Of a DNA stretch of 64,000 nt, positions 33,368-59,395 are shown in pieces. How positions within the stretch are numbered: the stretch's first letter is position 1; every line of letters starts with the position of its first letter. Location: NCBI RefSeq assembly GCF_030406905.1, contig NZ_CP129137.1:372001-436000 (forward strand), in the 5' to 3' direction. The translations under genes and the position numbers were made by a program. The notes under the pieces were generated by a model. The model had not been told where the DNA came from. It did no database searches and worked only from the letters and a program-made list of their open reading frames with translations. This DNA is from Streptomyces sp. HUAS CB01 (GTDB lineage: Bacteria > Actinomycetota > Actinomycetes > Streptomycetales > Streptomycetaceae).

Positions 33368-34405
33368 TCAGCCGTAACGGCGCAGTTCGTGGAAGAAGTC
33401 GTCGATGACGTGCAGTTGGCCGGCGCGTTCCGTCTCGTCGTACACGTACTTGCCGACGGCCAGGTCGAGCACTCCCAGGCCGAAGGGCGAGAAGACCACC
33501 GGCCGGTCGTCGGGCACCTGCACGGTGCCGTTCATGGCGTCGGCGAGGGTGCCGGTGAGGAAGTCCCGGCTGCCGGTGAGCTGCTCGGCCAGGTGCGGGG
33601 AGGTGTCGGCCTTGAGGCAGTGCTCGACGTCGTCGACGAAGTTGGCCGAGGCGAGCAGGATCTCCGGGGCGAGGTCCCGCAGGGAGACGTGCAGCACCAG
33701 CGGGTTGTGGGTGAACCACGCCGGGTCGGTGACGTGCGGCTTCGCGGCGATGGTGGCGAAGACGACCATGTCGCTGGAGCGGATGAGCTCCTCGGGGTCC
33801 TCGTGCACGGTGACGCGGCCGGTGGTGCCCGTCTGCTGGAGATACCCGGCGAACCCGGTGGCGCTGTCGCCCGACAGGTCGTGCACCCCGATCTCGTCGA
33901 AGGACCAGCCGGTGCCGGCGAGGTAGGTGTGGATGTAGCGGGCGATCAGGCCGGTGCCGAAGAACCCCACCCGCGCCGGACGTTCGGGCCGGGCGCGGGC
34001 GAGGCGGTCGGCGGCGAGCGCCGCCATCGCGGCGGTCCGGGTGGCGCTGATGATGGAGCTCTCCAGGCAGGCGAAGGGGTAGCCGGTGTCGTGGTCGTTG
34101 AGGATCAGTACGGCCGAGGCCCGGGGGATGCCGGCCGCGACGTTGTCGGGGAAGCTGGAGATCCACTTGAGGCCGTCCACGCGGACCTGCCCGCCGATGG
34201 AGGCCGGCAGCGCGATGATCCGGGAGTTGGGGCGGTCGGGGAACCGGAGGAAGTACGAGGGCGGGTTCACCGAATCGCCCGCGGCGTGCAGCCGGTAGGT
34301 GGCCTCGACCAGGTCGGTGATCTGCTTCTCACGATGCTGCAGTGCGCTGTGCACCTGTGCGCCGGGGATCACGGCGAACGGCGGCACTGCGGTCGGCTGG
34401 GACAT
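33368..34405 (-). CDS. sbnB: 2,3-diaminopropionate biosynthesis protein SbnB (ornithine cyclodeaminase fold)
   Basis: 345-aa NAD-dependent enzyme that oxidatively hydrolyses N-(1-amino-1-carboxyethyl)-glutamate to give L-2,3-diaminopropionate. It has the ornithine-cyclodeaminase/mu-crystallin pattern: IIALPASIGGQVRVDGLKWISSFP, the dinucleotide-binding VGFFGTGLIARYIHTYL, and FVDDVEHCLKA. Its partner SbnA is encoded 4.4 kb away, divergently. An upstream in-frame ATG at 34510 overlaps the hydroxylase stop (ATGA) and would add 35 Ser/Thr-rich residues; 34405 is preferred because it has GGGAG upstream and gives the usual family length. Confidence 0.88.
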   Translation of the reverse strand: MSQPTAVPPFAVIPGAQVHSALQHREKQITDLVEATYRLHAAGDSVNPPSYFLRFPDRPNSRIIALPASIGGQVRVDGLKWISSFPDNVAAGIPRASAVLILNDHDTGYPFACLESSIISATRTAAMAALAADRLARARPERPARVGFFGTGLIARYIHTYLAGTGWSFDEIGVHDLSGDSATGFAGYLQQTGTTGRVTVHEDPEELIRSSDMVVFATIAAKPHVTDPAWFTHNPLVLHVSLRDLAPEILLASANFVDDVEHCLKADTSPHLAEQLTGSRDFLTGTLADAMNGTVQVPDDRPVVFSPFGLGVLDLAVGKYVYDETERAGQLHVIDDFFHELRRYG

Positions 34406-34506
34406 GGGGGTCTCCCGGGGGACGGTGCGGCTGGTGGGCGGTGGGGTGGCGGTGGCCGCGCGGCTCGACGTGGCCGTTACGGAGGGGGAATCGGGGGGCG
34501 TGGCGC

Positions 34507-35514
34507 TCATCGGGTGGCCGCTCCGCCCGCCGGTGGGGCGTCGGTGGGCTTCTGCGGGTCCGCCATGCCGACGAGGATCTCGCGGGGGCCGTCGTAGGGC
34601 TCGCGGCTGTGGGCGGTGCGGATGTTGTCGACGAGCATCAGGTCGCCGGGCTGCCAGGGTTCGCGGGCCGTGTGGGCCTCGTAGACCTCGTTGAGGGTCC
34701 GTACGACGTCCTCGCCGACCGGGTCGCCGTTGCCGTAGCGGGTGTTGAACGGCAGGCCGTCCTCGCCGTAGACGTCGATCAGGTATTCGCGGACCTCGGG
34801 GGCGAGGGTCCATTCGTTGAGGAACGCGATCTGGTTGAACCAGCAGCGCGCTCCGGTCACGGGGTGGCGCACGACCGCGCTGCGGCGCTGGCGGGTGCGC
34901 AGTCCGCCGTCGCTCTGCCAGGCGACGTCGATGGCGTTGGCGCGGCAGTACTCCTCGACGGCGGCCCGGTCGCCGGTGCCGAAGGCGTCGGCCCAGGAGG
35001 CGCCGATCTCGTCGTTGTAGCTGCGGGTGAGCAGCCAGCCCTCGCGTTCGAACCGCTCCGTCATCGCCGACGGCAGCGCCTCCAGCACGGCCGTCGCGTC
35101 CGCGACTCCCGTGACCCCGCCGGAGGCCGGCGCGGTCAGGCACGCGAACATCATCGTGCCGGGAGGGGTGAGGGCGTAGCTGAGCTCATGGTGCATGCAC
35201 ATCGGCTGGTTCGGCGGCCATGCGGTGGAGGAGTACACACCGTCCGCGTACGGCTCCCGCGCGGCGAACGCCTCCCTGTCGGGCATGAGGGGGCCGCCGG
35301 CGAGGTGGCGGAACACCGCGCCGACCTGGTCCGCGTCGCGCAGTCCCAGTCCGCGGACGAGGATCGCACCGTGCTCGGCGACGAGGGCGCGCAGCGCGGG
35401 AGCGTGCGCGGCGCCCCACTGCGGAGCGTCGTCAGGGGTGTCGATGGTCAGGATCGGCGGCCTGCCGGGCTGAACGGTCGCCTCGGGCAGGGTCGTGGGG
35501 GCGGGGGAGGTCAT
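34507..35514 (-). CDS. TauD/TfdA (SyrP-like) Fe(II)/2-oxoglutarate hydroxylase
   Basis: 335-aa non-haem iron oxygenase. The metal triad is H108-x-E110 (in MCMHHELSYA) with the distal His in DNIRTAHSREPY; PREILVGM carries the 2-oxoglutarate-binding Arg. An Asn-rich FNQIAFLNEWTL segment and the overall length match SyrP-type enzymes that beta-hydroxylate amino acids held on carrier proteins. It is located between the NRPS protein (67 bases upstream) and SbnB (overlapping), so it probably hydroxylates the residue activated by this operon, or an amino acid of the peptide. The start follows the GGAAAGGACCCCCACACC leader. Confidence 0.87.
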   Translation of the reverse strand: MTSPAPTTLPEATVQPGRPPILTIDTPDDAPQWGAAHAPALRALVAEHGAILVRGLGLRDADQVGAVFRHLAGGPLMPDREAFAAREPYADGVYSSTAWPPNQPMCMHHELSYALTPPGTMMFACLTAPASGGVTGVADATAVLEALPSAMTERFEREGWLLTRSYNDEIGASWADAFGTGDRAAVEEYCRANAIDVAWQSDGGLRTRQRRSAVVRHPVTGARCWFNQIAFLNEWTLAPEVREYLIDVYGEDGLPFNTRYGNGDPVGEDVVRTLNEVYEAHTAREPWQPGDLMLVDNIRTAHSREPYDGPREILVGMADPQKPTDAPPAGGAATR

Positions 35515-35581
35515 GGTGTGGGGGTCCTTTCCTTGCTGCGGTGATCCGTGGTCGGCGTCGATGCGGTGGCCGGCTCCTTGT

Positions 35582-38095
35582 TCAGGAGGCAGGGGCGGGT
35601 TGGTTGTCGGTGGTGTTCCTGGTGTCGAGGAGTGCGGCGAGGTCGGTCAGGACGGGGTGGCGGGTGACGTCCTTGAGGGTGACGGCCCGGTCGAGGGCGA
35701 TGGCGAGTTTCACCGCGGACAGCGACGTGCCGCCGCGGTCGAAGAAGTGGTCGCCCCGCCCGATCCGGTCCTCGGGGACACCGAGCACCGTCGACCAGGC
35801 CGCCGCCAGCCGCCGTTCCGCCGCGGTCACCGGCGCCCCACCACCACCGCTGCCGGTGTCCCCGGTGGAGGTGTCCAGGGTGGCGGCGAGCGCGGTCAGG
35901 GCCTTCTTGTCGACCTTCCCGTTCGCGGTCAGCGGCAGCTCCGGCCGCCAGTGGAACACCGACGGCACCATGTACGACGGCAGCGTCGCCCCCAGCCCCG
36001 CGGCCAACTGCCCCGCCTCCAACGGCCCCGCGGCCGTGTAGAACGCCACCAACTGCGTCCCCGCCCCACCCGCCACCGCGACCACCGCACCGTCCCGCAC
36101 CCCCACCTGACGCAGCAGCGTGTTCTCGATCTCCCCGATCTCGATCCGGAACCCGCGGATCTTCACCTGCGTGTCCCGCCGCCCCAGGAACTCCAGCTTC
36201 CCCGACACATCCCAGCGCCCACGGTCCCCGCTGCGATACAACCGCTCACCCGGCCGCAACGGATCCGCCACGAACGCGGCAGCCGTCCGCTCCGGATCAT
36301 TGACATACCCACGCCCCACACACACCCCGGAGAACACGATCTCCCCCGGCGCGCCCAACGGCACCGGCCGCAACCCCTCGTCCACCACGTACACATGCAC
36401 ATTCGCCACCGGCCGGCCCAGCAGCACCCGCTCCGGCACCGACGTCATCACCTCGTGATTGGTGTCGTCACACGTCTCGGTCAGCCCGTAGGCGTTCACC
36501 AGCCGGATCCCCGGCTGCACGGCGAACCACCGCTCCACCAGCTCCCGCTTCAACGCCTCACCCGTCACCGACACACACCGCAACCCGCCCAGCGACCGCG
36601 GCGCGTGCTCCAACGCCGCCACCACCGCCTCCAGGTACGACGGCACCACCTGCAGCACATTCACCCCGGCACCCGTGACCGTGTCCAGGAACCGCGGAAC
36701 ATCCAGCACCGCGTCCTGCTCCACCACCACCGTCCGCCCACCCACCAGCAGGCCCGCCACCAACTGCCACAACGAGATGTCGAAACACTGCGGCGCGACC
36801 TGCGCCACCACACCACCCTCACCGATCCCCAGATCCTCGATCTTCGCGAACAGGTGATTGACCAGCCCCGCGTGCTCGCACATCGCCCCCTTCGGCTCAC
36901 CCGTGGAACCCGAGGTGAAGTAGATGTACGCCAACTGCCCCGCACCCACCGGCACGTCCAGATCGTCCGCGGCATGCCCCTCGCCGTACGCCACCTCCAC
37001 CAGCAGCCGCTCCACCCCGCCCACCGACACCAGCGCCTCATCGAGCGTGCCCGTACTGCCGGACTCCGTCAGCACCAGCCGGCACCCCGCCCGCGCCAGC
37101 GTCGCCGCGATCCGCCCCGCCGGGAAACCCGGCTCGACCGGCAGATACACCCCACCCGCCTTGAACACCGCCAGCACCGACGCCAGCCAGTCGGCACTGC
37201 GCTCCAGCACCACCCCCACCACACCCTCCCCCGCCACACCACGCGCCCGCAGCGCCCGCGCCAGCCGGTTCGCCCGCCCGTTCAACTCCCCGTACGTCCA
37301 CTCCCGCCCCGCGTCCACCACCGCCACCGCATCCGGATGCGCCCGCACCCGCTCCTCGAACAACTCGTGCACCCGCAACCCCGGCAACTCCCGCCGCCGC
37401 CCCGCCAGACCCTCGACCTGAAACGCCACCTCCGCATCGGAGACCACGGAGGCCGGGGCCGTGTCCGGGCCGGAGACGATCTGCTCGAGCGCGGTCAGGT
37501 GGTAGCCCGCGATCCGGCCCGCCGCCTCCCCGTCCAGCACATCGGTGCGATACCGCAGCCGCAGCACCACAGCCCCGTCCACCCCGTCCGCACCGTTGAC
37601 GACCGAAAGCCGCAGCACCGTCCCACCGACGACGTCCCCGTCGCCCCCGTGGGGATCGAACTCGGCTTCGGAGACCGGACCCGCGATCGCCAGCTGCTGA
37701 CGCAGGGCCTCGACGGGGAAGTCCTGGTACCGGGTGAGCCGTGACACGGTGTCATGGGTGGCCGTGACGAGGCTCCGCCACGACGGGACGTCGGTGGCGA
37801 CGCGGCAGGGCAGCGGCCGGGCGCCCGGGGCGGGAACGCAGCCGGTGACGGCCTCGTCCTCACCCGACAGCACCGCCAGCACATGCGCGTGGGCCGCCAG
37901 GACCAGCGAGGTGGCCGGAATGCCGAGCTCCTTCGCCAGTCGGCGCAGCCCCTGCGTGAGCTCGTCCGCGACCTGGACGTCGTGCCGCGCGCTCCCCGGC
38001 GCGGGCGTCGTCGTCCACCTCGGGATCGTGGTCAGTCCTCCGGCGCCGAGCGCGTCGCGCCAGAACTCCCGGCCCGTGTCCTCATGCATGTCCAT
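35582..38095 (-). CDS. NRPS: truncated C domain - adenylation - thiolation protein, predicted diamino acid substrate
   Basis: 837-aa assembly-line protein. Residues 30-215 match only the C-terminal half of a condensation domain; the HHxxxDG active site is absent. The adenylation domain follows (about 245-720: YFTSGSTGEPKG, NAYGLTET, YRSGDRGRW, NGKVDKKAL). The thiolation domain has its pantetheine Ser in FFDRGGTSLSAVKL. Aligning by eye to the GrsA pocket gives DIWQSTADDK; two acidic residues at the pocket base fit a basic side chain, so with SbnA/SbnB next door 2,3-diaminopropionate is the likely substrate. Codon usage switches from C- to G-ending within the adenylation region. Confidence 0.87.
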   Translation of the reverse strand: MDMHEDTGREFWRDALGAGGLTTIPRWTTTPAPGSARHDVQVADELTQGLRRLAKELGIPATSLVLAAHAHVLAVLSGEDEAVTGCVPAPGARPLPCRVATDVPSWRSLVTATHDTVSRLTRYQDFPVEALRQQLAIAGPVSEAEFDPHGGDGDVVGGTVLRLSVVNGADGVDGAVVLRLRYRTDVLDGEAAGRIAGYHLTALEQIVSGPDTAPASVVSDAEVAFQVEGLAGRRRELPGLRVHELFEERVRAHPDAVAVVDAGREWTYGELNGRANRLARALRARGVAGEGVVGVVLERSADWLASVLAVFKAGGVYLPVEPGFPAGRIAATLARAGCRLVLTESGSTGTLDEALVSVGGVERLLVEVAYGEGHAADDLDVPVGAGQLAYIYFTSGSTGEPKGAMCEHAGLVNHLFAKIEDLGIGEGGVVAQVAPQCFDISLWQLVAGLLVGGRTVVVEQDAVLDVPRFLDTVTGAGVNVLQVVPSYLEAVVAALEHAPRSLGGLRCVSVTGEALKRELVERWFAVQPGIRLVNAYGLTETCDDTNHEVMTSVPERVLLGRPVANVHVYVVDEGLRPVPLGAPGEIVFSGVCVGRGYVNDPERTAAAFVADPLRPGERLYRSGDRGRWDVSGKLEFLGRRDTQVKIRGFRIEIGEIENTLLRQVGVRDGAVVAVAGGAGTQLVAFYTAAGPLEAGQLAAGLGATLPSYMVPSVFHWRPELPLTANGKVDKKALTALAATLDTSTGDTGSGGGGAPVTAAERRLAAAWSTVLGVPEDRIGRGDHFFDRGGTSLSAVKLAIALDRAVTLKDVTRHPVLTDLAALLDTRNTTDNQPAPAS

Positions 38096-38817
38096 CGTGT
38101 CTTTCCTCGGTTGCTCGGGTGATGTGTCGTGGCGGCTGATGTGCGGTGGCGTCGCGGTGCCGGTCGGCCGTCAGTGGGCGTGTTCCGGTGCCGCGGTGTG
38201 ACGGGCGGCGTGGTGCGGGCCCTCGGGGTGGAGGGCCCTGTGGTCCCGTACTTCCCGGGCCGGGTTGCCGCCCCACCGTGCGTTAGGGGGAACTTCGCGG
38301 TGGACCGTCACACGGTCACGTTGCGTGACGCCGGCCGGGTGCTTCCCCGGGGCGCCCCGGTCGCGGAACCACGAATTCATGGGTCGCACACCTGCAATCC
38401 GCGTGGTTGCTCTGTCGTCTTCCTTGGAATCATTCGTTCCCGGACCGCCCTCCACGGGCTGTCGCGCGGCGGATCGCATATGCGCCGCACCGCTGGAACC
38501 GAACGCTCTCCAGTAGGCCCGATCAGGGCGGATCTGTCCTGCTGCGGGAATTCGGTACTTGACGGGACATCCCTGTCCGGATAGGCCGTCCGATCCGGTG
38601 GTACCGCCGGCGCCCGATGCCCCCCGAGCAGCCGATCACGGGTGTGACCTGCACAGATATTCCAAGACTCACGCTCTGCAGAAGGTGCGCAATTGTCAAG
38701 CCCCGAATTCCGGTGGCATGACGGCGGGGGTTCCGGCCGGGCGTACTGGAGAAGCGTTCGGGCGCCGCCCGGACGGCCTTTCCACCCACCCCTCACACGC
38801 CCTGACAGGAGGCCGCC
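38096..38817. promoter_or_regulatory. 722-bp divergent control region of the diaminopropionate block
   Basis: It separates the leftward NRPS-hydroxylase-SbnB operon from rightward sbnA and is markedly AT-richer from 38370 to 38720. A candidate rightward promoter is TTGACG (38559-38564), a 17-base spacer, then TAGGCC (38582-38587). The spacer holds the perfect inverted repeat GGACA-TCCC-TGTCC (38565-38578), and CCGGAT...ATCCGG (38577-38598) overlaps the -10. Such sites inside a promoter are typical of repressor control. No iron-box sequence (TTAGGTTAGGCTAACC-type) is present. No gene is supported here. Confidence 0.45.
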
Positions 38818-39807
38818 GTGCCTGTCATATCCGTCCCCCAGGACTTCAACGAAGACGATCTCTATGTCGACCTCGAGGCGATTTCCGGGCACCCGCTGTT
38901 CCTGAAGTGCGAGGGGTTCAACTTCGCCGGCTCGATCAAACTCAAGGCCGCCACCGAGATGGTCGAGGCCGCCGAGCGCGACGGCCTCCTGCGGCCCGAC
39001 TCGGTCCTGATCGAGTCCTCGTCGGGCAACCTGGGCGTGGCGCTGAGCATGATCGCCGCCAGCAAGGGCTACCGGTTCCTGTGCGTGACGGATCCACGGT
39101 GCAACCTGTCCACCCGACTGCTGATGGAGGCCCTGGGCGCCGAGGTGCACACCGTCACCGAACCCGGCGAGGGCGGCTTCCTCGGGGCGCGCATCGACCA
39201 CGTGCGGGCGCTGTGCGCCTCGGACGACCGCTACGTATGGCTGAACCAGTACACGAACCCGCACAACGGAATGGCCCACTACCGCAGGACCGCCCCGGCC
39301 ATCGCCCGCCAGTTCCCCGACCTCGACGTGCTGTTCGTCGGCGCGGGCACCACCGGGACACTCATGGGCTGCGCACGCTACTTCCGCGAGTGGCACCGCC
39401 CCGTGCGCATCGTGGCCGTGGACAGCGCCGGTTCCGTCACCTTCGGCGACGCTCCCGGCCGGCGGATGATCCCCGGGCTCGGCACCAGTGTCCGACCGCC
39501 CCTGCTGGACACCTCGTACGTGGACGAGGTCGTCCACGTCCCCGAGGCCGACACCATCCGTGCGTGCCATCGGCTGGCCCGGCGCGGATTCCTCTTCGGC
39601 GGCTCCACCGGCACCGTCGTCAGCGGCGCCACGAGATGGCTCGCCGCGCACGGCGACGAGAACGTCACGGCGGTGGCCATCGCACCCGACCTGGGCGAGC
39701 GGTACCTGGAGACGATCTACCAGGCCAACTGGGTCCACGATCTCTACGGCGAGCACGTACTCACCCGACCGGCCGCGACCGTCCCCTCCCCCTCCCCCGC
39801 GGTCTGA
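38818..39807 (+). CDS. sbnA: 2,3-diaminopropionate biosynthesis protein SbnA (PLP enzyme)
   Basis: 329-aa PLP-dependent synthase of the cysteine-synthase fold that condenses O-phospho-L-serine with L-glutamate to N-(1-amino-1-carboxy-2-ethyl)-glutamate, the SbnB substrate. The PLP lysine is in AGSIKLKAA (Lys41), the phosphate loop is ESSSGNLGVAL and GAGTTGTLMGC, and FLFGGSTGTVVSGA closes the site. The GTG start at 38818 follows CAGGAGG. With SbnB it supplies diaminopropionate to the adjacent NRPS. Family assignment is firm; the link to this NRPS is inference from position. Confidence 0.9.
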   Translation: MPVISVPQDFNEDDLYVDLEAISGHPLFLKCEGFNFAGSIKLKAATEMVEAAERDGLLRPDSVLIESSSGNLGVALSMIAASKGYRFLCVTDPRCNLSTRLLMEALGAEVHTVTEPGEGGFLGARIDHVRALCASDDRYVWLNQYTNPHNGMAHYRRTAPAIARQFPDLDVLFVGAGTTGTLMGCARYFREWHRPVRIVAVDSAGSVTFGDAPGRRMIPGLGTSVRPPLLDTSYVDEVVHVPEADTIRACHRLARRGFLFGGSTGTVVSGATRWLAAHGDENVTAVAIAPDLGERYLETIYQANWVHDLYGEHVLTRPAATVPSPSPAV

Positions 39808-39938
39808 CCTCCGTCCCGGCGGCGCGGCCCGCGTGAAGGTCCGCTCTCCGGCCACGGGCGCGGCGCGGCGAGAACGCACGCGCGACGAAAGACCGTCGAG
39901 CGCGACCCCGGACTGCGGACCTCCAGGACTCGGAGAAT

Positions 39939-40562: not shown

Positions 40563-40678
40563 CGCGGGAGGCTCTCCGGAGTCACGGGAAGCCGTACGCG
40601 TCGCGGCCGCGGCGTCACACACCTGGCGCCCCGGGGCACGGGGTCGTCGCCCGGCCCGCCGGCGGGCAGCACGGGTGC

Positions 40679-41107: not shown

Positions 41108-41119
41108 CGCGCGGCCGCC

Positions 41120-43200: not shown

Positions 43201-43214
43201 GCCGAGGAGTGCGG

Positions 43215-45329: not shown

Positions 45330-45420
45330 CCTCGTACCCACCGCCCGGTGACGGCGGACCGCCCCGGCGCGGGGCGTGCTGCCGGGAACGGCGGTGCGCC
45401 GGGGCGCAGGGGTGACGGCG

Positions 45421-48400: not shown

Positions 48401-48590
48401 CGTCGTGGCGCGTGCGACCGGGCCGCGCGGTCTCCTCCGGTGCGTCGCCGTTCTCCCCGGCGGCGGGGGCACCGTCACCGGAGGCGGCGGGTGCGGCCGG
48501 GGTGTGCCGTGAGGCGCGGGCGCGGCGCAGCAGTTCCCGCTGGAGTTCCTGCCGCCGGGCAGGCGGCACGGGGTCGGCGTCAGTGGGCAT
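45462..48590 (-). CDS. NRPS: condensation - adenylation remnant - thiolation - reductase (release) protein
   Basis: 1042-aa terminal assembly-line protein. The condensation domain spans about 72-510 with an intact HHIAVDG (199-205). Instead of an adenylation domain only its C-terminal lid is recognisable (about 590-680: VDDATVVHP, PLAFAVLRG, LPRAADGTVDRSRL); the ATP- and substrate-binding core is missing. Thiolation domain: DDDFFALGGHSLVAVQL. Reductase domain (about 775-1030): VLVTGATGGVGAFVLREL, SVDAYG and SPYGKAKLDCE give the NAD(P) loop and Tyr-Lys pair. It should release the peptide as an aldehyde or alcohol. The thiolation domain must be loaded in trans. The start overlaps the upstream gene by 11 bases. 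Confidence 0.88.
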   Translation of the reverse strand: MPTDADPVPPARRQELQRELLRRARASRHTPAAPAASGDGAPAAGENGDAPEETARPGRTRHDAPPRDGRNRAPLSRAQRRMWLTERLGGSGDSYHVPFATRVRGPFDPTALGAALTGLVGRHEILRTRYAQHDGEPCQEVLPSPRTVPVPVVDLPGTEARPALEREAARPFDLSAGETLRALVLRHGQQDHTVLLTFHHIAVDGGSLETVAGELAALYTAAAEGTGRHGLGAPPQYADHARREHAGAPGLEADLRRWSGLLADAAPPRLPRRGTGLREGAARRAAVRTVPLGHRLPDALRALGAERRATLFAVALTAAFAALHRLTGDDDLVIGVAGTHRRGTAMRGLVGLCVNTLPVRVDVSGDPSFAGLLDRVRDALLEAQRHRHIPFDLVLERLGAGARGTDGTALVRVTSDVLGEPTVLRLPGTSAEYVDVPATGAKFDLSYGLGLGDPAEPVALVQYDRAALDDSVAEATARHYAALLGTAAAAPDLPLSRLPAPGTDLGPGSGATGDAPAEQVAVTGRHAAAAHAPAPAPGGTGTGAGPDDPREHPAVRALRAHPRVDDATVVHPAEGPPLAFAVLRGGLGPARAELLGLLRRSLAPESVPATVTLLDALPRAADGTVDRSRLPGLPAPSAPSGPRAEAVTEGFTALLGLVPSPDDDFFALGGHSLVAVQLAERLRTGLALPLTGLDVLQARTPRALTALLDGRAAEQTAAKAEAAAKSATRPGRPRGARAGTVLVTGATGGVGAFVLRELAARGRPVLALARPESAHLLAAEGVDVVEGDLTDPDGLRDAVGSADAIVHAASTFTRPEVDLAAMEAMTAAWRRGPFVFVSSVDAYGRPEGERVAEESPSYGPLSPYGKAKLDCEAMLLRAAGTEGRGGAGAVRSPIVWGAHDRLREQLRWGAIGRLYQAARDGGPIELPRPGTGGHPWYGVAWVHAAALARAVADCLDRPVHGVANACSGHVSWLDLARDLTELLGTSAEFREVDATPRDLDHHWHYDSARLAAPLRARPGEDRRTVLAAMIDGMSDGRSDGAG

Positions 48591-50454: not shown

Positions 50455-50455
50455 C

Positions 50456-52930
50456 TCAGGCTCCTTCCGGTCGCGGGGTGCGTCGCTCGTCGAGGAGGGC
50501 GGCGAAGGCGCGCAGATCGGTGCTGCGCAGCAGTTCGGGGGCGCGCAGCCGGACGCCGGTCGCGCGCTCGACGGCGGTGAGCAGCCTGGCGGCGACGACG
50601 GAGGTGCCGCCGGCGTCGGTGAAGTTGTCGTCGAGTGTGGTCCCGGGCCGGCCGAGGAGGTCCCGTACGGTCGCGAGGACGAGCCGTTCGGTGGGTGTGG
50701 CGCCGGCGGGGTCGTCTGCGGTCGCCGCGGTCCCGGCGGGATCCGGTGCCACGGCCGCCAGGGCGGCCCGGTCCACCTTGCCGTTGGCGTCCAGGGGGTA
50801 GCCGTCGACGACGCGCACGGCGGTGGGCACGGCCTGCTCGGGGAGCCAGGCGCGGACCGCCGCCAGCAGGTCGCCGGCCGCGGGTTCGCCACCGGCGGCG
50901 GGCCGCACGTGGGCGACGAGGCGCGCGGTGCCGGACGCGTCGCGCAGCACGGTCACGACGGCGCTGTGGACGGCCGGGTCGCGCTCGAACGCGGCCTCCA
51001 CCTCGGCCGGTTCGATCCGCACGCCACTGATCTTGACCTGGTCGTCGAGGCGGCCGAGGAACTCGAGGCTGCCGTCGGCGGTCATCCGTACCCGGTCGCC
51101 GGTGCGGTAGAGGCGTTCGACGCCGGGCAGCGGCGGGTCCTGCGGCGGGGCGGTGAAGCGGCGTGCGGTGAGCTCGGGGTCGAGGTAGCCGAGCGCCAGG
51201 CAGTGGCCGCCGATGCGGAGTTCACCGTCCTGTCCGCGGGCCACGGGCCGGCCGTCGTCCCCGGTGACGACGACCGTGACGCCCGGCAGGGGCGTGCCGA
51301 TCGGCGGCGGTTCCGGGCAGCCCGCCTTCGCGTCGGTGCCGCGCATGGCGTACGTGGTGGTGACGACGGTGGCTTCCGCGGGACCGTAGGCGTTGTGCAC
51401 GGTGGCGGTGACGTCGCGGCCGGGCCGCCGGCGCATACGGTCGCCGCCGACCACCAGATGACGCAGCTTCAGGTCCTGCGGCCACGGCCGGTCGAGCAGC
51501 GGTTCCACCATGGGGGTGGCCGCCACGGACACGGTGACGGCGGCGTCGCGCCACCAGTCGGTGAGGACGCGCGAGTCCCAGCGGACGTCGTCGGGCGCGG
51601 GGACGAGGGCCGCGCCGGAGGTGAGTCCGGCCCACAGCTCCAGCAGGTGCGGGTCGAAGGCGACACCGATGAGCAGGGACTGGCGGTCGCCGGGTGCGAG
51701 ACCGGTCTCGGACCGGTACCAGTCGAGGGCTACGGACAGGGCGGGCTCGGCCACGGCGACCGCCTTGGGCCGGCCCGTGGAGCCGGAGGTGAGGACGGCG
51801 TACAGGGCGCCCTCGGGCGCGCGTCGTGCGCCGGTGGCAGGGGCGGTGAAAGCGGCCACGGGGGCGGCCGGGGCGTTGCTGCCCTCGGTGGGCAGGGGCA
51901 GCGGGGTCCGCTCCCCGGCACGGTGGCGGGGAGGCAGGACGGCGGGGTCGCCGATGAGGCAGACGACGTCGAGGTCCTCCGTGACGGCCTCGGTGCGGCG
52001 CTCGCCGGGACGGGGGCCGAGCGGCAGGTAGACGGCACCGGCGCGGGCGAGCGCGACGGCGGTCACCACGAGGGCCGCGGACCGGTCGAGGCAGACGCCG
52101 ACGAGGTCACCGGGCCGTACGCGGTCGCTCAGGGCGGTCGTGACGCGCGCGGCGGCGGTGTCGATGTCCCGGTACGTCCAGGTGCGGTCGCCGTCGATCA
52201 CGGCCGGGGCCTGCGGGGTACGCCGGACCCAGTCCTCGAAGCGGGCGAGGACGCCGGTCGGTTCGGCCGCGGGGCCGTGGGCGACGCTCGACGGAACACC
52301 GGCGGGTCCGTCGGGGGCGGAGCCGCGGGGCGCATCGGTGCGGAGGGGGGCGGCGTCGGGAGCGGTCACGGCGTCGACGGCGGACGCCGGGTCGGGGCGG
52401 GTCGCCGTGCCGAGGGCGGACGTCGCCTCCGGGCGGCCGGCGGACACCACATCGCGGCCGGCCGACGTACCGGCGGACGCGGGGCCGGCGGCGGACGCCG
52501 GGGCAGTACCGGCGGACGCGGGGGCGAGACCGGCATCGGACCCCAGGCCCATGCCGACGGCGGACATCGTGTCGGCCTCGGCGGGCGACGCGGGGGCAGT
52601 GCCAGGGGCAGTGCCGGCGGCGGACGCCGGGGCAGTACCGGCGGACGCGGGGGCGAGGCCGGCATCGGACCCCAGGCCCATGCCGACGGCGGACATCGTG
52701 TCGGCCTCGGCGGGCGACGCGGGGGCAGTGCCAGGGGCAGTGCCGGCGGCGGACGCCGGGGCAGTACCGGCGGCGGACGTCGCCTCCGGGCGGCCGGCGG
52801 ACGCCATATCGCGGCCGGCCGACGTACCGGCGGCGGAGGCGGGGTCGGCGGCGGTCACCGTGGCGGCGACCTCGGCGGACGCGTCGTCGCGGGCCGGTGC
52901 GGTGTCGGGGGTGGTCAGGGGCTGGGTCAT
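50456..52930 (-). CDS. NRPS adenylation-thiolation protein with 240-residue repetitive N-terminus
   Basis: 824 aa. Residues 1-240 are Ala/Gly/Pro/Ser/Thr-rich with an exact 43-residue tandem duplication and flanking half-repeats (AGRDMASAGRPEATSA / AGRDVVSAGRPEATSA). The adenylation domain follows (about 243-720: LTSGSTGRPKAVAV, FDPHLLELWAGL, NAYGPAEAT, YRTGDRVRM, DANGKVDRAAL), then thiolation (DNFTDAGGTSVVAARL). The pocket read by eye, DPLVVGAVVK, matches no code I know. Some core residues are unusual, so activity is not certain. The start shares one base with the upstream stop (TGATG); a GTG three bases earlier is possible. Confidence 0.85.
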   Translation of the reverse strand: MTQPLTTPDTAPARDDASAEVAATVTAADPASAAGTSAGRDMASAGRPEATSAAGTAPASAAGTAPGTAPASPAEADTMSAVGMGLGSDAGLAPASAGTAPASAAGTAPGTAPASPAEADTMSAVGMGLGSDAGLAPASAGTAPASAAGPASAGTSAGRDVVSAGRPEATSALGTATRPDPASAVDAVTAPDAAPLRTDAPRGSAPDGPAGVPSSVAHGPAAEPTGVLARFEDWVRRTPQAPAVIDGDRTWTYRDIDTAAARVTTALSDRVRPGDLVGVCLDRSAALVVTAVALARAGAVYLPLGPRPGERRTEAVTEDLDVVCLIGDPAVLPPRHRAGERTPLPLPTEGSNAPAAPVAAFTAPATGARRAPEGALYAVLTSGSTGRPKAVAVAEPALSVALDWYRSETGLAPGDRQSLLIGVAFDPHLLELWAGLTSGAALVPAPDDVRWDSRVLTDWWRDAAVTVSVAATPMVEPLLDRPWPQDLKLRHLVVGGDRMRRRPGRDVTATVHNAYGPAEATVVTTTYAMRGTDAKAGCPEPPPIGTPLPGVTVVVTGDDGRPVARGQDGELRIGGHCLALGYLDPELTARRFTAPPQDPPLPGVERLYRTGDRVRMTADGSLEFLGRLDDQVKISGVRIEPAEVEAAFERDPAVHSAVVTVLRDASGTARLVAHVRPAAGGEPAAGDLLAAVRAWLPEQAVPTAVRVVDGYPLDANGKVDRAALAAVAPDPAGTAATADDPAGATPTERLVLATVRDLLGRPGTTLDDNFTDAGGTSVVAARLLTAVERATGVRLRAPELLRSTDLRAFAALLDERRTPRPEGA
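52509..52766. repeat. 129-bp in-frame tandem duplication inside the NRPS gene
   Basis: Two adjacent copies begin at 52509 and 52638 and differ at a single base in the stretch I compared (GAGACC versus GAGGCC). Each encodes 43 residues, including TMSAVGMGLGSDAGLAPASA. Shorter related phrases flank the pair on both sides. The near-identity indicates a recent duplication or ongoing unequal exchange. Confidence 0.88.
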
Positions 52931-55900
52931 CACGACTCCGTCGAGAGGGTGGCGGTGGCTGCGAGGGCGTCGGCCTGGTCGGCGAGCACGGGGTTGCGGA
53001 AGAGCACCTTCAGCGGCGGGCGCGTGCCCAGCCGGGGCTCGAGCCAGGCCGCAAGCTCGGCGGCGAGCAGGGAGTGGCCTCCGCTGCGGAAGAAGTGGGA
53101 GCGCGCGTCGAACCGGCTGTGGCCGAGGACTTCGCGCCAGCCCTCCGCGAGCAGGGCCGTCATCGGGTCGTCCGGTGCGGCGTCGGCCGTGGGCCCAGCC
53201 GCGGGTGCGGGTGCGGGTGCGACGGGTTCGAGTGCCGCCGCGCGGCGGGCGAGCGCGGTCCGGTTCGGCTTGCCGCCGGGGAGGGTCGGCATGGTGTCGA
53301 GGCGTGCCCAGCGCGCGGGGACGAGGGGGCCGGGCAGCCGGCGGCTCAGCTCGGCGTGCAGCGCCTTCTCGTCGAACTCCGCGCCGTCTCCCCCCTCTTC
53401 GAGGAAACCGACGAGCCGTGGGCCTCCGGCCGTCTCGCGGTCCAGGACGACGGCGCAGGACCGGCCGCCGAGCGCGGCGGACGCCGCCGCCTCGATCTCC
53501 TCCAGCTCGATGCGGTGGCCGCGGAGCTTGATCTGGTTGTCCCGGCGGCCCAGGAAGTACAGGAGGCCGTCCAGTCCGCGGTAGCCGAGGTCACCGGTCA
53601 GGTACACGCGCTCCCCGCCGAGTGCGTCGACGGTGACGAAACGGGCGGCCGTGGCCTCCGGGTTCCCCGCGTACCCCTCGGCGAGGCCCGGCCCGGCGAT
53701 GGCGAGTTCACCGACGGCGCCGGACGGCAGGGGACGGTGGTGGGCGTCCAGGACGTGAACGCGTTCGCCCGGGAGTTCGGTGCCGAGGGGGATCTCGGCA
53801 CCCTCGGCGAGGGCCTCGCGGGATATCTCGTGGACGGTGGAGCTGATGGCCGCCTCGGTGACGCCGTACACGTTGAGGACGGTCGCGTCGGTGTCGGCGA
53901 GGGCGTCGCGGAGGGCGTCCGCGGGGAGCCGCTCGCCGCCGAGGACGAGCAGCCGCGGGGCCCGGCTCCCGTCGCGCAGCGCGGGCCGCAGGTCCTCGCG
54001 GGTGGCGAGGAAGTAGCTGGTGGGCAGGTTGGCCACGGTCACGCGTGCGGACGCGAGCAGGTCGGCGAGCTCCGTGCCGGTGGGCACCTCGTGGTCGGGG
54101 AGGACCAGGCACGCCCCGGCGTACAGGGTCGGCAGGACCTCCTCCAGGGCCACGTCGAACGACGGCTGGGCGAACATCAGGACCCGGTCCCCGGCGGCGA
54201 GGCCGAATCGGTCGGCGGTCGCCGTCAGATGGTGTTCGAGCGCCGCGCGCCCGACGGCGACGGGCTTCGGGGTCCCGGTGGAGCCGGAGGTGTGGATGAC
54301 GTACGTGGTGCCGGGCAGCACCGCGGCCTCGCGTGCACGGGGCAGCACGGGTGCGTCGACCCGGGCGGCGGGCAGTCCGTCCGGTACGGCCGGGTCGCCC
54401 TCGCCGATGAGCACCAGCGCGGGGCCCAGCCGCTGCAGCAGCAGTTCGAGCCGGGCGGGCGGGTCGGAGGGGGACAGCGGGCAGTAGACGGCGCCGGTCC
54501 GCAGACAGGCGAGGAGGGCGACGACGGAGTCGGCGCTCCTGGGCAGGACGACGGCCACCGGCTGTCCGGGCGTCACACCCGCGGCGCGCAGCCGCTGCGC
54601 GAGCGAGCTGACGCGCGCGTCCAGTTCTCCGTAGGTGAGGCGCCGGGCGCCGGACAGCAGCGCGGGCAGGTACGGGTCGTGGCCGGCCACGGGGTCGAGC
54701 GGGTCGCGGTCCGCCGGGACGGGCACGGCCGCGGCGGCCGGCTCCGGGGCCGCGGGCGCGAGATCGGCCAGCGGGGCCCCCGGGGTGTCGAGGTAGGCCC
54801 GGAGCAGGTCCAGGAACCGGCCGGCGAGCAACCGTGCCACGTCCTCTCCGAGGAGGTCGGCGTCGTAGTCCCAGACCAGGGTCATACCGGCCGCGCCGTG
54901 GCGCGGGGTGACGCCGCGCCGGTCGTCCGGCAGCAGCACCACGTCGAGGTCGAACCGGGTGGTGCCGGTGTTGAACCCCTCGAAGAGGGTGATGTCCAGG
55001 CCGGGTACGTCGATCTCGGGGAGGGGGGCGTCATGGGCGCTGAACATGACGGAGAACAGCGGGTTGTCGGCGCCCGTGGAGTGCATGCCGAGCATCCGCG
55101 TCAGCTCCTGGACCGGTACGTCCTGGTGCGGGAGCGCGCGGATGAGGGTGTCGGTGACCTCGTCCATGGCGTCCTGTGCGGGCGCGGCGGCGTCCAGGGC
55201 GAGCGGCAGCGGGATGGTGTTGACGAACATGCCGACCGCGTCCTCGTAACCCCGCGGACGGTTGCCGACGGCGGTGCCGACGACCATCCGGGACCGTCCG
55301 CTGTGCCGGCGCAGGAGTTCGGCGAACAGCCCGAGGAGCGTGGCGAACGGGGTGAGGCCGCGCGCGCGGGCGTGTTCGCGCAGCCGCCCGGCGAGGTCGG
55401 CGCCGATCGACTGGCGCAGCTGCCCGCCGTGGTGCCTGCGCCGGGCGCCGGGGCGGGCGAGGCCGGGCAGTGGCAGGTCGTGGGGCTGGTCGCGGAGTTC
55501 CGTCCGCCAGAAGTCGAGGCTCTCGGGTGCGTACGCGGTCTCGACCCGGCTGCGGACGTGGTCCGCGTACGAGGAGGCGGGCGGGAGTTCCACGGGCTCG
55601 CCGAGGACGTGGGCGCGGTACACGCGGAACACGTCGTCGAGCAGGATCGCGAAGGAGTGCCCGTCGTGGATCAGGTGGTGCTCGACGTGGATCAGCCGGT
55701 GGTGGCGCTCGGCGAGGCGCACGAGCGTCCAGCGGAGCAGCGGTGCATCGAAGGTGTCGAGCGGGGACTCGGCCTCGGCGCGCAGCAGTTCGGCGAAGGC
55801 CGCCTCGGGGTCCCCTTCCCCGCCGAGGTCGACCGTGCGCAGCCGCGGCGGGCACTTCTCCGCGACCCGCTGCCCCGGTACGGATCCGGCGGAGGCGACG

Positions 55901-56076
55901 AGTTCGAGCCGCAGGCCGGGGTGGCGCTCCAGGGTGGCGGCGAGCCCGCGGCGCAGCGCCTCGGTGTCGAGAGTGCCCCACAGGTCGAGTGCGGCGGTGA
56001 AGTTGTAGGCACGGCTGCCCGGCTGCATCTGCTCGTGCAGCCAGACGATCTCCTGCGAGGAGGAGAGCGGAAGCAT
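52930..56076 (-). CDS. NRPS condensation-adenylation-thiolation module
   Basis: 1048 aa, first module of the operon's assembly line. Condensation domain about 1-430 with HHLIHDG (133-139) and VGMFVNTIPLPL. Adenylation domain about 455-930: VIHTSGSTGTPKPVAV, FDVALEEVLPTL, NVYGVTEAA, YLTGDLGYRG, and Lys in LPGGKPNRTAL. Thiolation domain with HFFRSGGHSLLAAEL. The pocket read by eye is DVENVGVISK, very like the DMENLGLINK-type codes associated with N5-hydroxyornithine and its formyl form, so a modified ornithine is a reasonable guess. CAGGGA before ATG 56076 sets the start. Confidence 0.88.
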   Translation of the reverse strand: MLPLSSSQEIVWLHEQMQPGSRAYNFTAALDLWGTLDTEALRRGLAATLERHPGLRLELVASAGSVPGQRVAEKCPPRLRTVDLGGEGDPEAAFAELLRAEAESPLDTFDAPLLRWTLVRLAERHHRLIHVEHHLIHDGHSFAILLDDVFRVYRAHVLGEPVELPPASSYADHVRSRVETAYAPESLDFWRTELRDQPHDLPLPGLARPGARRRHHGGQLRQSIGADLAGRLREHARARGLTPFATLLGLFAELLRRHSGRSRMVVGTAVGNRPRGYEDAVGMFVNTIPLPLALDAAAPAQDAMDEVTDTLIRALPHQDVPVQELTRMLGMHSTGADNPLFSVMFSAHDAPLPEIDVPGLDITLFEGFNTGTTRFDLDVVLLPDDRRGVTPRHGAAGMTLVWDYDADLLGEDVARLLAGRFLDLLRAYLDTPGAPLADLAPAAPEPAAAAVPVPADRDPLDPVAGHDPYLPALLSGARRLTYGELDARVSSLAQRLRAAGVTPGQPVAVVLPRSADSVVALLACLRTGAVYCPLSPSDPPARLELLLQRLGPALVLIGEGDPAVPDGLPAARVDAPVLPRAREAAVLPGTTYVIHTSGSTGTPKPVAVGRAALEHHLTATADRFGLAAGDRVLMFAQPSFDVALEEVLPTLYAGACLVLPDHEVPTGTELADLLASARVTVANLPTSYFLATREDLRPALRDGSRAPRLLVLGGERLPADALRDALADTDATVLNVYGVTEAAISSTVHEISREALAEGAEIPLGTELPGERVHVLDAHHRPLPSGAVGELAIAGPGLAEGYAGNPEATAARFVTVDALGGERVYLTGDLGYRGLDGLLYFLGRRDNQIKLRGHRIELEEIEAAASAALGGRSCAVVLDRETAGGPRLVGFLEEGGDGAEFDEKALHAELSRRLPGPLVPARWARLDTMPTLPGGKPNRTALARRAAALEPVAPAPAPAAGPTADAAPDDPMTALLAEGWREVLGHSRFDARSHFFRSGGHSLLAAELAAWLEPRLGTRPPLKVLFRNPVLADQADALAATATLSTES

Positions 56077-56225
56077 GGGCGATCCCTGAGGTCGTCGGGT
56101 CGGTTGTCCGGCCGGTCACGATCGTGGCCGGCGGTGGTCCTGCGGGCGGTCACGGTGGTGGCCGTCTGTGGGCGTCCGGGCGCTCCGCGGGTCGCGCGGT
56201 GGTGCGTCGGACGGGGTGGTACGTC

Positions 56226-56251
56226 GGGGTGGCGCGCCGGGGCGCCACCCC
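56226..56251. terminator. hairpin inside the NRPS operon gap
   Basis: GGGGTGGCGC (56226-56235) pairs with GCGCCACCCC (56242-56251) with a 6-base loop. It sits in the 369-base gap between the free-standing C gene and the C-A-T gene. It may end one transcript or dampen read-through. The rest of this gap is GTG/GGT-rich and shows no gene. Confidence 0.5.
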
Positions 56252-56445
56252 GGCCGTGGGCCGTTGACGCGGTGGCGCGTGGAGGGGCGGTGACGCGGTC
56301 GTCCGCCGTGGTCCCGGCTCCCCGGTGGGTTGCGGACGCGGTGTCGGTGCCCCGGGTGCCGGGGCGGCTCGCCGGGAGTACGGGCCGGCGTGCCGTGTCC
56401 GCCCGTGCGCCGGGTCACCGTGCGCACTCCGGGTGGCGTGGCGTG

Positions 56446-57741
56446 TCAGTCCACGGGCCGTCCCGGTGGGCGCAGCGCGTCGGCGAGGGCCTCGAAAGCC
56501 TCGTTCGCTGTGCGGTCGTCGAGGACGGCACGGTCCCAGACCATCCGCAGACGGAGTTCGGCCCCCTGGGTGACGGACACGGCGAAGGGCCCCCGTACGG
56601 TCCGGCCGTCGACGTGGATCTCCCGGCCCTCGACACCGGCCAGCCGCAGCGGGGGCCGGCGGCGGTCGTCGTCCACGGTCAGCAGTCCGTCGAGGCGTCC
56701 GGTCCAGCCCGAGCCGGCCGACCGCGCGGCGCTCACGACCGCGTCGAAGGGCGCGTCGGCGCGGTCGAGATCGTCCCACCAGGCGTCGGCCGTCACCTCC
56801 GGTGCCGGGCCGTGGCCGGTGGCCGCGGGAAAGACGACGGTGTTGAGGAAGCAGCCGACGACCGGCTCCGCACCGGCGGGGCGGCCGCCCCAGGGGTAGC
56901 CGAGCGGGACGACGCTGCCGGGTCCGTAGAGCGCCCGCGCGGCGGAGCGGCAGGCGTCGAGCAGTTCGGGGAAGGGCACGGTGTCGTCGTGGGCGGGCAG
57001 CAGGGCCTCGGCCGAACCGCTCGGGAGCGCTCCGGCGGGCACGCGTTCCGGGCGCGCGGTCGGGGCCTGCTCGCGTACGGCGCGGAGCCGGTCCGCCCAG
57101 TAGGCCGCCGCCTCGGTGGTGTCCGCCCGTTCCTCCGCGGCGAGTTGCAGGAGGACGGCCTCCCGGTAGGCGGCGAGTTCGGCCTCCGTCTCCTCCGGGG
57201 CGGGAGGGCTCGCCGTGATGGTCTCGGCGTAGGCGGCGCCGAGTTCCTCGACGATCCGGGTCAGCGAGCGGCCGTCGCACACGGCGTGGTCCAGGACGAC
57301 GGCGAGGACGTCGTCGTCCCGGCCCCGGTCGTCCCGTACGAGGAACAGCCGCAGCGGTGGGCCGTCCGGGTCCCAGGCGGCGAGCGCGCGGCGGAGCGTG
57401 TCCGCGGGCCGCTCACCCGGAGCGGGGGCCGGCCGTGAAACGGGGACGTCCGGTTCCCCGGCGCGGAGGACGGGCGTTCCGCGGACCACGGCGGGTCGCG
57501 AGCGCAGGGCGGTGTGCCGCGCGGCCACGCCGCGGGCCGCCGCCCGGAGGCGTTCGACGTCGACGGTGCCGGAGGGGAAGGCGAAGAACATCGGCACCAC
57601 GTCGGGTCGTCCCGACCGGTCCAGCGAACGCACCAGTACGAAGCGCCGCTGTGCTCCGGTGACGGGCAGCAGGTCGTCTGTCCGGTCGCCGGCGGTGAGG
57701 TGCCGGTAGCGGGCCAGGTACTGGCTCGTGATGCTGAGCAC
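56446..57741 (-). CDS. free-standing NRPS condensation-like domain protein
   Basis: 431 aa forming one condensation-fold protein without carrier or adenylation domain. The active site is VLDHAVCDGRS: the catalytic His152 and the DG (156-157) are kept, while the first His of HHxxxDG is Asp151. YPWGGRPAGAEPVVGCFLNTVVFPA corresponds to the VGxFxNT block and TADAWWDDLDRADAPFDAVV to the following helix. It may form the bond for the A-T proteins that lack their own C domain. The GTG start at 57741 follows AGAGGAC. A leftward gene between the exporter and the C-A-T gene. Confidence 0.82.
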   Translation of the reverse strand: MLSITSQYLARYRHLTAGDRTDDLLPVTGAQRRFVLVRSLDRSGRPDVVPMFFAFPSGTVDVERLRAAARGVAARHTALRSRPAVVRGTPVLRAGEPDVPVSRPAPAPGERPADTLRRALAAWDPDGPPLRLFLVRDDRGRDDDVLAVVLDHAVCDGRSLTRIVEELGAAYAETITASPPAPEETEAELAAYREAVLLQLAAEERADTTEAAAYWADRLRAVREQAPTARPERVPAGALPSGSAEALLPAHDDTVPFPELLDACRSAARALYGPGSVVPLGYPWGGRPAGAEPVVGCFLNTVVFPAATGHGPAPEVTADAWWDDLDRADAPFDAVVSAARSAGSGWTGRLDGLLTVDDDRRRPPLRLAGVEGREIHVDGRTVRGPFAVSVTQGAELRLRMVWDRAVLDDRTANEAFEALADALRPPGRPVD

Positions 57742-57890
57742 GTGGTCCTCTCTGTCGTGGCCGCGGGTGCGCGGGAGGGGGCGATGGGTCGCGTTCGGGC
57801 GGGTGCCGCCGTCGGCCTTGCGCGTGCGACCGCCGCGGTGTGATGCGCGGTTCGTACGGCGTGTCCGCCGCACGGGCGTGTGACGGTGGT

Positions 57891-59279
57891 TCAGCGGGCG
57901 GGCACGGGCCGTTCGTCGCCGTCCGCGACCTCGCCGGATGCGCCGGCCCGGGGCGCCTCGGGCCCGGTGCCGCCGTGCCCGGCCGACTCGGGCACGCTGT
58001 CGTCCGGGAGGCCGTCGTCCGGGAGGCCGTGGGGCGTCGGCAGGTCGCGCATCCGGCGCATCGGGGACAGCAGCAGCGGCAGCGGTACCGCGAGGAACCC
58101 GGCGGCGCAGCAGGCGAGTGCCGTGCGCGGCCCGAAGGACTCGGCGAGGGCGCCGCCGAGGAGGGCCCCGAGGGGCAGGGTCCCCCACATGAGGAAGCGC
58201 AGGGTGGCGTTCATCCGGCCGAGCAGCCTGGGCGGGCACAGCGCCTGGCGGAAGCTGACCTGCGCGACGTTGTAGACGACGGCGCCGAAGGAGACGGCAG
58301 CGGACCCGGTGGCGAAGAGGACCGCGCCGGGGACGCCCGGGCCGGACAGGGGCCACAGCACGGCGAACGGTCCGGTCGCGAGGGCGGAGAGGCGGATGAG
58401 CCTGGCCTGCCCCAGCCGTGCGGCGAGCCGGGCGGCACACAGGGCGCCGAGGAGCCCGCCGACGGCCGAGGCGGACAGGACCAGGCCGAGCGCCCCGGGC
58501 CGCAGTCCGACGGTGCGGACGAGGTGGACCGTCTGCGTCGCCATGAGGACGGCGGTGCAGAGGTTGGCGAGGCCCGTCGTGAGGGCGATGACGCGGAGCA
58601 GCGGATGGCGGGTGACGAAGCGGACACCCTCGCCGATGTCCTGGCGCAGGGAGCCGCCGGGGGTGGGCTCGGGCCGTTCCTCGGGCCGTTTGACACCGAG
58701 GAGGAACAGCGCGGAGAGCATGTATCCGACGGCGTCGGCGATGACGGCGAGGTGCGCTCCGGCGAGCTGGACGAGTCCGCCGCCGATGCCGGGACCGGTC
58801 ACCTGGGCGGTGGAGCGGACCGTCTCGAGCGCGCCGTTGCCCGCGACGAGCTGGTGATGGGGCAGGAGTTGCGGGAGGTAGCTCTGGTGGGCGACATCGA
58901 AGAAGACGGTCGCCACGCCGACGACGAGCGCGACGACGTAGAGCTGAACCATCGTCAGGACGTCGGCGACCGCGGCGGCGGGGATGCTCGCCATGGCGGC
59001 GGCGCGCACCAGGTCCGCCCGGATCATCAGGGGGCGCTTGCGCATCCGGTCGGTGAGGGCGCCGGCGGGCAGTCCGATGAGCAGGAACGCCGCGGTCTCC
59101 GCGGCGGTGAGGAGGCCCACCTGGAAGGCGGAGGCGTCGAGTTCGAGGACGGCCACGAGCGGCAGGGCCACCAGTGTGACATGGGCGCCGAGCTGTCCGG
59201 TGGCCGCTCCCGCGAGCAGCAGCCGGAAGTCACGTATGCGCATCGGGCCGCCGGCGGCGGCTCGGGATGTGACGGACAT
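57891..59279 (-). CDS. MFS exporter (EntS-like)
   Basis: 462-aa membrane exporter with about 12 hydrophobic segments: FRLLLAGAATGQLGAHVTLV at the start, AGALTDRMRKRPLMI for the loop 2-3 motif, and the second half from VIALTTGLANLCTAVLM. The pattern is that of the MFS_3/EntS group that exports siderophores and peptides. It is the first gene of the leftward operon, so it probably exports the cluster product. The C-terminal 50 residues are Asp/Gly/Pro-rich. Start uncertain: ATG 59279, GTG 59294 or ATG 59243; none has a clear ribosome binding site, so it may be leaderless or weakly translated. Confidence 0.87.
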   Translation of the reverse strand: MSVTSRAAAGGPMRIRDFRLLLAGAATGQLGAHVTLVALPLVAVLELDASAFQVGLLTAAETAAFLLIGLPAGALTDRMRKRPLMIRADLVRAAAMASIPAAAVADVLTMVQLYVVALVVGVATVFFDVAHQSYLPQLLPHHQLVAGNGALETVRSTAQVTGPGIGGGLVQLAGAHLAVIADAVGYMLSALFLLGVKRPEERPEPTPGGSLRQDIGEGVRFVTRHPLLRVIALTTGLANLCTAVLMATQTVHLVRTVGLRPGALGLVLSASAVGGLLGALCAARLAARLGQARLIRLSALATGPFAVLWPLSGPGVPGAVLFATGSAAVSFGAVVYNVAQVSFRQALCPPRLLGRMNATLRFLMWGTLPLGALLGGALAESFGPRTALACCAAGFLAVPLPLLLSPMRRMRDLPTPHGLPDDGLPDDSVPESAGHGGTGPEAPRAGASGEVADGDERPVPAR

Positions 59280-59395
59280 GTGAACGACATTCACTGAACG
59301 GCCGATCAGCAGTCAAAAGCTCACAGCCACTTTCGGTCGATTCTTGCGCTGCTTCGGCGATACTTCAGTAAAAGTTTCTCTGTACCCGAGGTACA
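59280..59395. promoter_or_regulatory. two inverted repeats in the control region of the NRPS operon
   Basis: GTGAA-CGACA-TTCAC at 59280-59294 directly abuts the exporter start. TGTACC-CGA-GGTACA at 59381-59395 lies about 100 bases further upstream. Both are perfect inverted repeats in AT-rich sequence, in the 323-base gap that also holds the promoter of the rightward ATPase gene. No DmdR/IdeR iron box is visible. They are candidates for operators of the peptide operon. Confidence 0.5.

Follow-up and report, generated by a model that had tools for sequence, protein, structure and literature searches.

Do two neighboring nonribosomal peptide synthetase (NRPS) blocks in the genome of Streptomyces sp. 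HUAS CB01 constitute one biosynthetic system or two? The window analyzed here, a stretch of 64,000 nucleotides (C1:372001-436000 of an 8.10-Mb genome in 6 contigs, coded G000), carries block 1, which spans positions 33368-39807, and block 2, which occupies 45462-57741 together with a transporter gene at 57891-59294. An initial annotation took both as a single split cluster, matching nothing known, that makes a diaminopropionate-containing peptide. Our analysis indicates that block 2 is very probably a cluster of the antipain/chymostatin/omicsynin type and that the two blocks are independent systems that are neighbors. The anatomy given in the earlier annotation stands, and its interpretation was half right: diaminopropionate supply and reductive release are supported, but the reading of one split cluster is not.

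Pfam and NCBIfam profile searches of the window proteins bore out the domain counts of that annotation. There are four adenylation (A) domains (encoded at 35582-38095, 48580-50454, 50456-52933, and 52930-56076), five thiolation (T) domains, and two complete in-line condensation (C) domains (in the products of 52930-56076 and 45462-48590). One free-standing C domain (56446-57741) narrowly exceeds the cut-off of 30.6 bits with a score of 30.7, and a half C domain at the N terminus of the 35582-38095 product falls below that cut-off (24.6 bits).

Block 2 lies entirely on the minus strand. Its conserved order opens with a major facilitator superfamily (MFS) transporter gene (57891-59294; Pfam MFS_3/MFS_1), which adjoins the gene for the free-standing C protein in the majority of related loci and is followed by five separate NRPS genes that together encode three A domains. 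These encode a free-standing condensation-like protein of 431 amino acids (C; 56446-57741; PF00668), a C-A-T enzyme (CAT; 52930-56076; A code DVENVGVISK), an A-T enzyme with an N-terminal low-complexity stretch (XAT; 50456-52933; A code DPLVVGAVVK), a second A-T enzyme (AT; 48580-50454; A code DAFFVGGTFK), and a C-T-R enzyme that ends in a putative reductase (R) domain (CTR; 45462-48590). The starts of the C, AT, and CTR genes were refined to 57741, 50454, and 48590, respectively. The low-complexity N terminus of XAT contains a 129-bp tandem repeat (2.2 copies, 99%) at 52484-52843, a recent expansion.

The claim that this domain order resembles no known cluster did not survive comparison with relatives. 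A contig scan with an alignment of 17 C-T-R proteins yielded 73 named loci (65 from Streptomyces, 5 from Kitasatospora, and the rest from Saccharothrix, Planomonospora, and Streptosporangium). The order C, CAT, XAT, AT, CTR is found in 69 of them, and the remaining 4 show part of the genes only. The same order is present in Streptomyces rimosus (L152) and in S. noursei B-3066 (L134), which we take to be the deimino-antipain strain. Protein identity of block 2 to these two loci is 52 to 77% per gene. The codes DPLVVGAVVK and DAFFVGGTFK each equal those of B-3066 at 10/10 positions, and the third agrees with DVENVGAVTK of B-3066 at 7; the S. rimosus codes differ more from those of the window than the B-3066 codes do. 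In a second sample, one set of 295 genomes of the genus, 27 of the 30 genomes with block 2 gave 27 loci, 26 of which keep the gene order; the other (L072) shows the C-T-R gene only. The more distant antipain-type clusters L088-L093 have a gap of about 1.2 to 1.5 kb between CAT and XAT that may hold an extra gene, and a clear frame is seen there only in L088 (427 amino acids).

The C domains provide further evidence. The C domain of CAT contains the motif EHHLIHDG, and this motif is kept in all 96 readable loci, a count in which some genomes are present in both locus sets. EHHxxHDG is reported to mark ureido-forming C domains, a group that includes antipain, and to be absent from other MIBiG C domains (PMC11212132). 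In the free-standing C protein, LDHAVCDG stands where HHxxxDG would be expected. Its 12 commonest forms, covering 88 of 93 loci, carry D or E for the first His ([DE]HxxCD[GE]), and because of this replacement its sequence marks it as an unusual condensing domain.

We then asked how often the two blocks occur together in the 295 genomes, using as markers the SDR (short-chain dehydrogenase/reductase) domain alone of the C-T-R enzyme for block 2 and the block-1 TauD-type oxygenase at ≥53% identity for block 1. The former is present in 30 genomes (in one, G073, as a fragment) and the latter in 118 (183 at E ≤ 1e-30). Both are found in 15 genomes, with 12 expected (Fisher p = 0.16). Neighbors were defined as lying within about 20 kb, and three block-2 genomes with too little assembled sequence (G016, G073, and G167) were left out, giving 27 informative genomes. 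The blocks are adjacent in four of these: the window genome, G230, and G273, identified by TauD, and G034, identified by SbnA. Similarly, 61 of the 73 named loci have at least 8 kb of downstream sequence, and block-1 genes (>55% identity) occur there in two: L157, apparently from genome G034, and L111, in which the complete block-1 operon has the opposite orientation. Among genomes with the divergent block-1 layout described below, block 2 was not found in G040, G212, G285, and G101 and is far away in G218. In relatives, then, finding just one of the two blocks is the norm. Both outcomes that the initial annotation had set as refuting it were seen, this one and the match of block 2 to a known cluster type. 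With co-occurrence not above chance and each block usually alone, we rejected a single split cluster making a diaminopropionate aldehyde as the main reading.

If block 1 is a separate system, what does it do? Three of its four genes are on the minus strand: an SbnB-type gene (33368-34510; the start may be 34405), a gene for an Fe(II)/2-oxoglutarate oxygenase of the TauD/TfdA family (34507-35514; 161 bits, Pfam), and a gene for a half-C.A.T charging enzyme (35582-38095). An SbnA-type gene (38818-39807) is on the plus strand. The diaminopropionate supply proposed in the initial annotation held up: SbnA passes the curated cut-off of TIGR03945 (391.6 versus 349.95 bits) and SbnB that of TIGR03944 (419.2 versus 326.9), and their best solved relatives are SbnA (5d87, E 4.8e-60) and SbnB (4m54, E 7.1e-32). 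Residues H108, E110, H302, and R311 of the oxygenase, which the initial annotation had called a SyrP-like hydroxylase, include the HxE...H iron site and are invariant in 24 sequences. The charging enzyme has an identical A code, DIWQSTADDK, and the carrier motif GG[TN]SL in 22/22 loci. This code was not found in the literature library searched; DVWQMIGDDK, among Dab-type domains, has been given as the code for a beta-hydroxylated residue (PMC12283262), and the shared D.WQ...DDK pattern is only suggestive. Comparison with PDB structures placed linear gramicidin synthetase first by two-domain summed score, with other pocket residues, and was uninformative about the substrate.

The kind of locus to which block 1 belongs is common in Streptomyces, and the window copy is a reduced one. 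In its usual in-line layout, this locus encodes T-Pls, half-C.A.T with a thioesterase (TE), TauD, SbnB, and SbnA (14 mapped loci); another 4 mapped loci have no detectable TE. The T-Pls polymerase matches TIGR02353 at 817 bits against a cut-off of 423. A second layout, in which SbnA is divergent from Pls, half-C.A.T, TauD, and SbnB and the TE is missing, occurs in three loci (L059, L101, and L104) and, judged from coordinates, in G040, G212, and G285. The window and G230 have the divergent layout without Pls, and the window charging enzyme has no TE of the usual form. L066 is a remnant of block 1, part of a set that is divided in G012 between 6.37 Mb (L205; SbnA, Pls, and half-C.A.T) and 1.08 Mb (L066; TauD and SbnB). 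In G034 (L107, L108, and L109), contigs end within or next to the block-1 copies, the TauD gene is divided between two such ends, and the start of half-C.A.T stands alone beside SbnA, a pattern due either to rearrangement or to an assembly fault at converted copies.

The window contains no TIGR02353 polymerase gene, but three such genes score above the cut-off elsewhere in the same genome. A complete second copy of block 1 is located at 5.31 Mb (L055), and a divergent-type polymerase gene stands as an orphan at 6.997 Mb (L183, C1:6997524). A third SbnA/SbnB pair (L185, C1:268000-286000) is 49 and 55% identical to the window pair. We found no SbnA, SbnB, TauD, or half-C.A.T genes beside the orphan Pls/PosA-type polymerases L183, L203, L204, and L202. 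A simple transfer of the divergent-type polymerase out of block 1 to 7.0 Mb would be in keeping with the single clade (support 1.0) formed by the orphan polymerases of the window genome, G230, and G034, but less so with G273 and G218, each of which has a linked divergent-type polymerase plus a further one. Because it has neither a polymerase nor a thioesterase of its own, the window block 1 most likely serves a polymerase encoded elsewhere. SbnA and SbnB would make diaminopropionate, the half-C.A.T enzyme would load it, the TauD-type oxygenase may oxidize it on that enzyme, and the charged residue would be supplied in trans to a Pls-type polymerase, a scheme in which substrate, oxidation, and polymer are predictions.

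The two block-1 copies of the window genome share stretches of identical DNA. Exact runs of 1,839 bp (35595-37433) and 458 bp (34613-35070) match L055, and 250-bp windows outside these tracts are 66 to 90% identical between copies. The longest exact run between copies is 1,712 bp in G230 (L056/L060) and 796 bp in G273 (L059/L061). Between copies, the half-C.A.T proteins show 91% (G000), 93% (G230), and 98% (G273) identity, whereas SbnA and SbnB in these genomes group by locus type. As a control, we compared the copies in 12 further, hand-picked genomes that have two copies and a readable half-C.A.T gene in each (G218, G101, G040, G212, G285, G130, G234, G153, G237, G253, G064, and G036); runs of at least 100 bp occur only in G285 (maximum, 204 bp). 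No run was found in four copy pairs without a readable half-C.A.T gene (G216, G144, and two of the three G234 pairs). The 1,839-bp tract is a sign of recent gene conversion. The converted stretch is only 81 to 94% identical between the window genome and G230, and for this reason we take the events in these two genomes as separate. On the evidence of these alignments, recurrent gene conversion has affected the charging enzyme and a portion of the oxygenase, in copies about 4.9 Mb apart, separately in three lineages. With contigs of 7.6 to 8.2 Mb, an assembly fault behind the identical tracts is unlikely.

One alternative is that the window block 1 is a decaying relic, homogenized with a working copy only by chance recombination, as might be expected from the loss of its polymerase and thioesterase, the complete copy at 5.31 Mb, and the broken or scattered pieces of block 1 in G012 and G034. 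We consider this unlikely. All four genes are open, and simple NG86 estimates of the ratio of nonsynonymous to synonymous substitution rates (dN/dS) between the window and G230 are 0.13 for SbnB, 0.30 for TauD, 0.32 for half-C.A.T, and 0.08 for SbnA, similar to those of the block-2 genes (0.19 to 0.34). These values, together with the conserved A code, carrier motif, and oxygenase residues, argue that block 1 is maintained. Our tentative proposal, one possibility that we would not press far, is that SbnA/SbnB, TauD, half-C.A.T(-TE), and T-Pls form an undescribed split line that polymerizes oxidized diaminopropionate. In the lineage of the window this line would be dispersed, and the polymerase-less module beside the antipain-type cluster would be kept identical to the charging module of the complete locus by recurrent gene conversion since both modules charge the same amino acid for shared trans-acting polymerases.

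Several points weigh against two independent systems and against the assignment of block 2. The blocks are adjacent throughout a lineage (G000, G230, G034, and G273, the last with the polymerase) and again, in a different layout, in L111, so that chance adjacency is not certain. Block 1 of the window genome and of G230 is polymerase-less yet under purifying selection, which would call for a partner. As for block 2, its third A code departs from that of B-3066 at 3 of 10 positions, and its product is a prediction. Could block 2 be the missing partner? In this lineage, the half-C.A.T enzyme might charge (oxidized) diaminopropionate and pass it in trans to the A-less C-T-R enzyme or the free-standing C protein, giving a diaminopropionate-containing peptide aldehyde. 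The repeated adjacency and the conservation of block 1 fit such cooperation, as does the need of the C-T-R module to receive a residue in trans; capreomycin offers a precedent for the borrowing of an A domain by a module that has none (PMC12400406). However, relatives that lack block 1 also have the A-less module as a rule (PF00501 is seen in none of the 120 proteins listed), 23 of the 27 informative block-2 genomes have no block 1 nearby, co-occurrence is not above chance, and the linked block-1 copy of G273 retains its polymerase gene. We therefore regard cooperation as very unlikely and treat block 2 as an independent antipain-type system.

How, then, would the block-2 product be released? 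The C-T-R enzyme has an AMP-binding_C remnant (PF13193, 25.9 bits) between its C and T domains, and the A core is gone. A search with residues 520-1042 gave at least 412 proteins at E ≤ 1e-20; the 120 relatives listed are 950 to 1080 residues long, and PF00501 is present in none. HH..D, the carrier Ser672, and Ser838, Ser839, Tyr864, and Lys868 of the SDR domain are invariant in 17 sequences. The terminal domain (46388-45462) is an extended SDR (PF01370, 69 bits). PF07993 is not among its 12 Pfam families at E ≤ 1e-3, nor was TIGR01746 found among the best 25 of 31 NCBIfam families, and on this basis we rejected the canonical NRPS thioester reductase. The initial annotation had called a terminal reductase; reductive release stands by likeness to OmnF, but membership in the usual reductase family does not. 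In-frame deletion of the R domain of OmnF gives C-terminal acids (PMC12783407), and this analogy supports the assignment of reductive release to the SDR-type domain. An epimerase-type or other SDR activity, to which the best Pfam match (the epimerase family) and a structural model nearest to UDP-sugar 4-epimerases (template modeling score, 0.66; mean predicted local distance difference test score, 70.5) could point, is highly improbable given that the comparable OmnF domain is required for the aldehyde and that Pfam searches of the five block-2 NRPS proteins found no other release domain.

The block-2 product is likely a ureido-tetrapeptide aldehyde. Three condensing domains and four carrier positions would fit a ureido-tetrapeptide, and with three A domains for four residues, one residue is presumably loaded in trans. 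XAT would load the terminal residue, which the ureido-forming CAT enzyme would link head to head, via a ureido group, with an Arg-like residue, the predicted substrate of DVENVGVISK. AT would supply a residue of the Val/Ile type, predicted from DAFFVGGTFK, and the free-standing C protein would couple it, probably joining residues 2 and 3. The fourth residue may be added by the A-less C-T-R enzyme once one of the three A domains has loaded it in trans. The SDR-type reductase would then free the peptide aldehyde, a putative protease inhibitor, for export by the MFS pump.

The nearest known relatives of block 2 are the omicsynin (omn), deimino-antipain, and chymostatin clusters, in which there are likewise five separate NRPS genes with a total of three A domains, a ureido C domain, and an A-less C-T-R enzyme with a short extended-SDR R domain. 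An arginine cyclase gene (omnC/AnpI) is described as additional in omn (PMC12783407). Chymostatins A-C were found in S. rimosus, where a region 66% deimino-antipain is given for a strain other than L152 (PMC9045324), and the same figure is given for a region of S. nojiriensis JCM 3382 (9,022,916 bp; PMC8466323). An NRPS cluster reported as identical to antipain occurs in S. antarcticus (PMC12451607), the species that includes strain H27-S2 (L111). In Streptomyces sp. ID38640, antipain was detected, and the cluster shows 61 to 78% gene identity to MIBiG entries (PMC7955054). Block 1 has relatives of its own. It shares the diaminopropionate-forming pair with staphyloferrin B (SbnA/SbnB) and capreomycin (CmnB/CmnK), whose downstream genes differ. 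The usual form of block 1 also shares this pair, a charging enzyme, and a TIGR02353 polymerase with poly(L-diaminopropionic acid) and other Pls/PosA-type systems (PMC4668381), from which it differs in having the charging enzyme and polymerase as separate proteins, an oxygenase, and often a thioesterase; the window copy differs further in missing the polymerase. Neither the SbnAB-TauD-A.T.TE-Pls locus nor its product was found in the literature library searched, where poly(L-diaminopropionic acid) synthesis was nearest (PMC4668381). As far as we have seen, the block-1 locus is common yet little described. Outside both blocks, ARAGORN called a 98-base tRNA-Gly on the plus strand (32602-32699) inside a SpoIIE-type frame on the minus strand (31631-33217); this call is probably false.

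Block 2 belongs to a known kind of cluster, and block 1 represents, in reduced form, a locus that is common. The supposed new diaminopropionate peptide aldehyde can be dropped as a false lead, and the prediction for this strain is a protease inhibitor of the antipain type. The analysis also draws attention to a common Streptomyces locus in which diaminopropionate synthesis is combined with a charging enzyme, an oxygenase, a thioesterase, and a Pls-type polymerase, and it offers a clear natural case of recurrent gene conversion affecting the adenylation-thiolation domains encoded by two distant loci.

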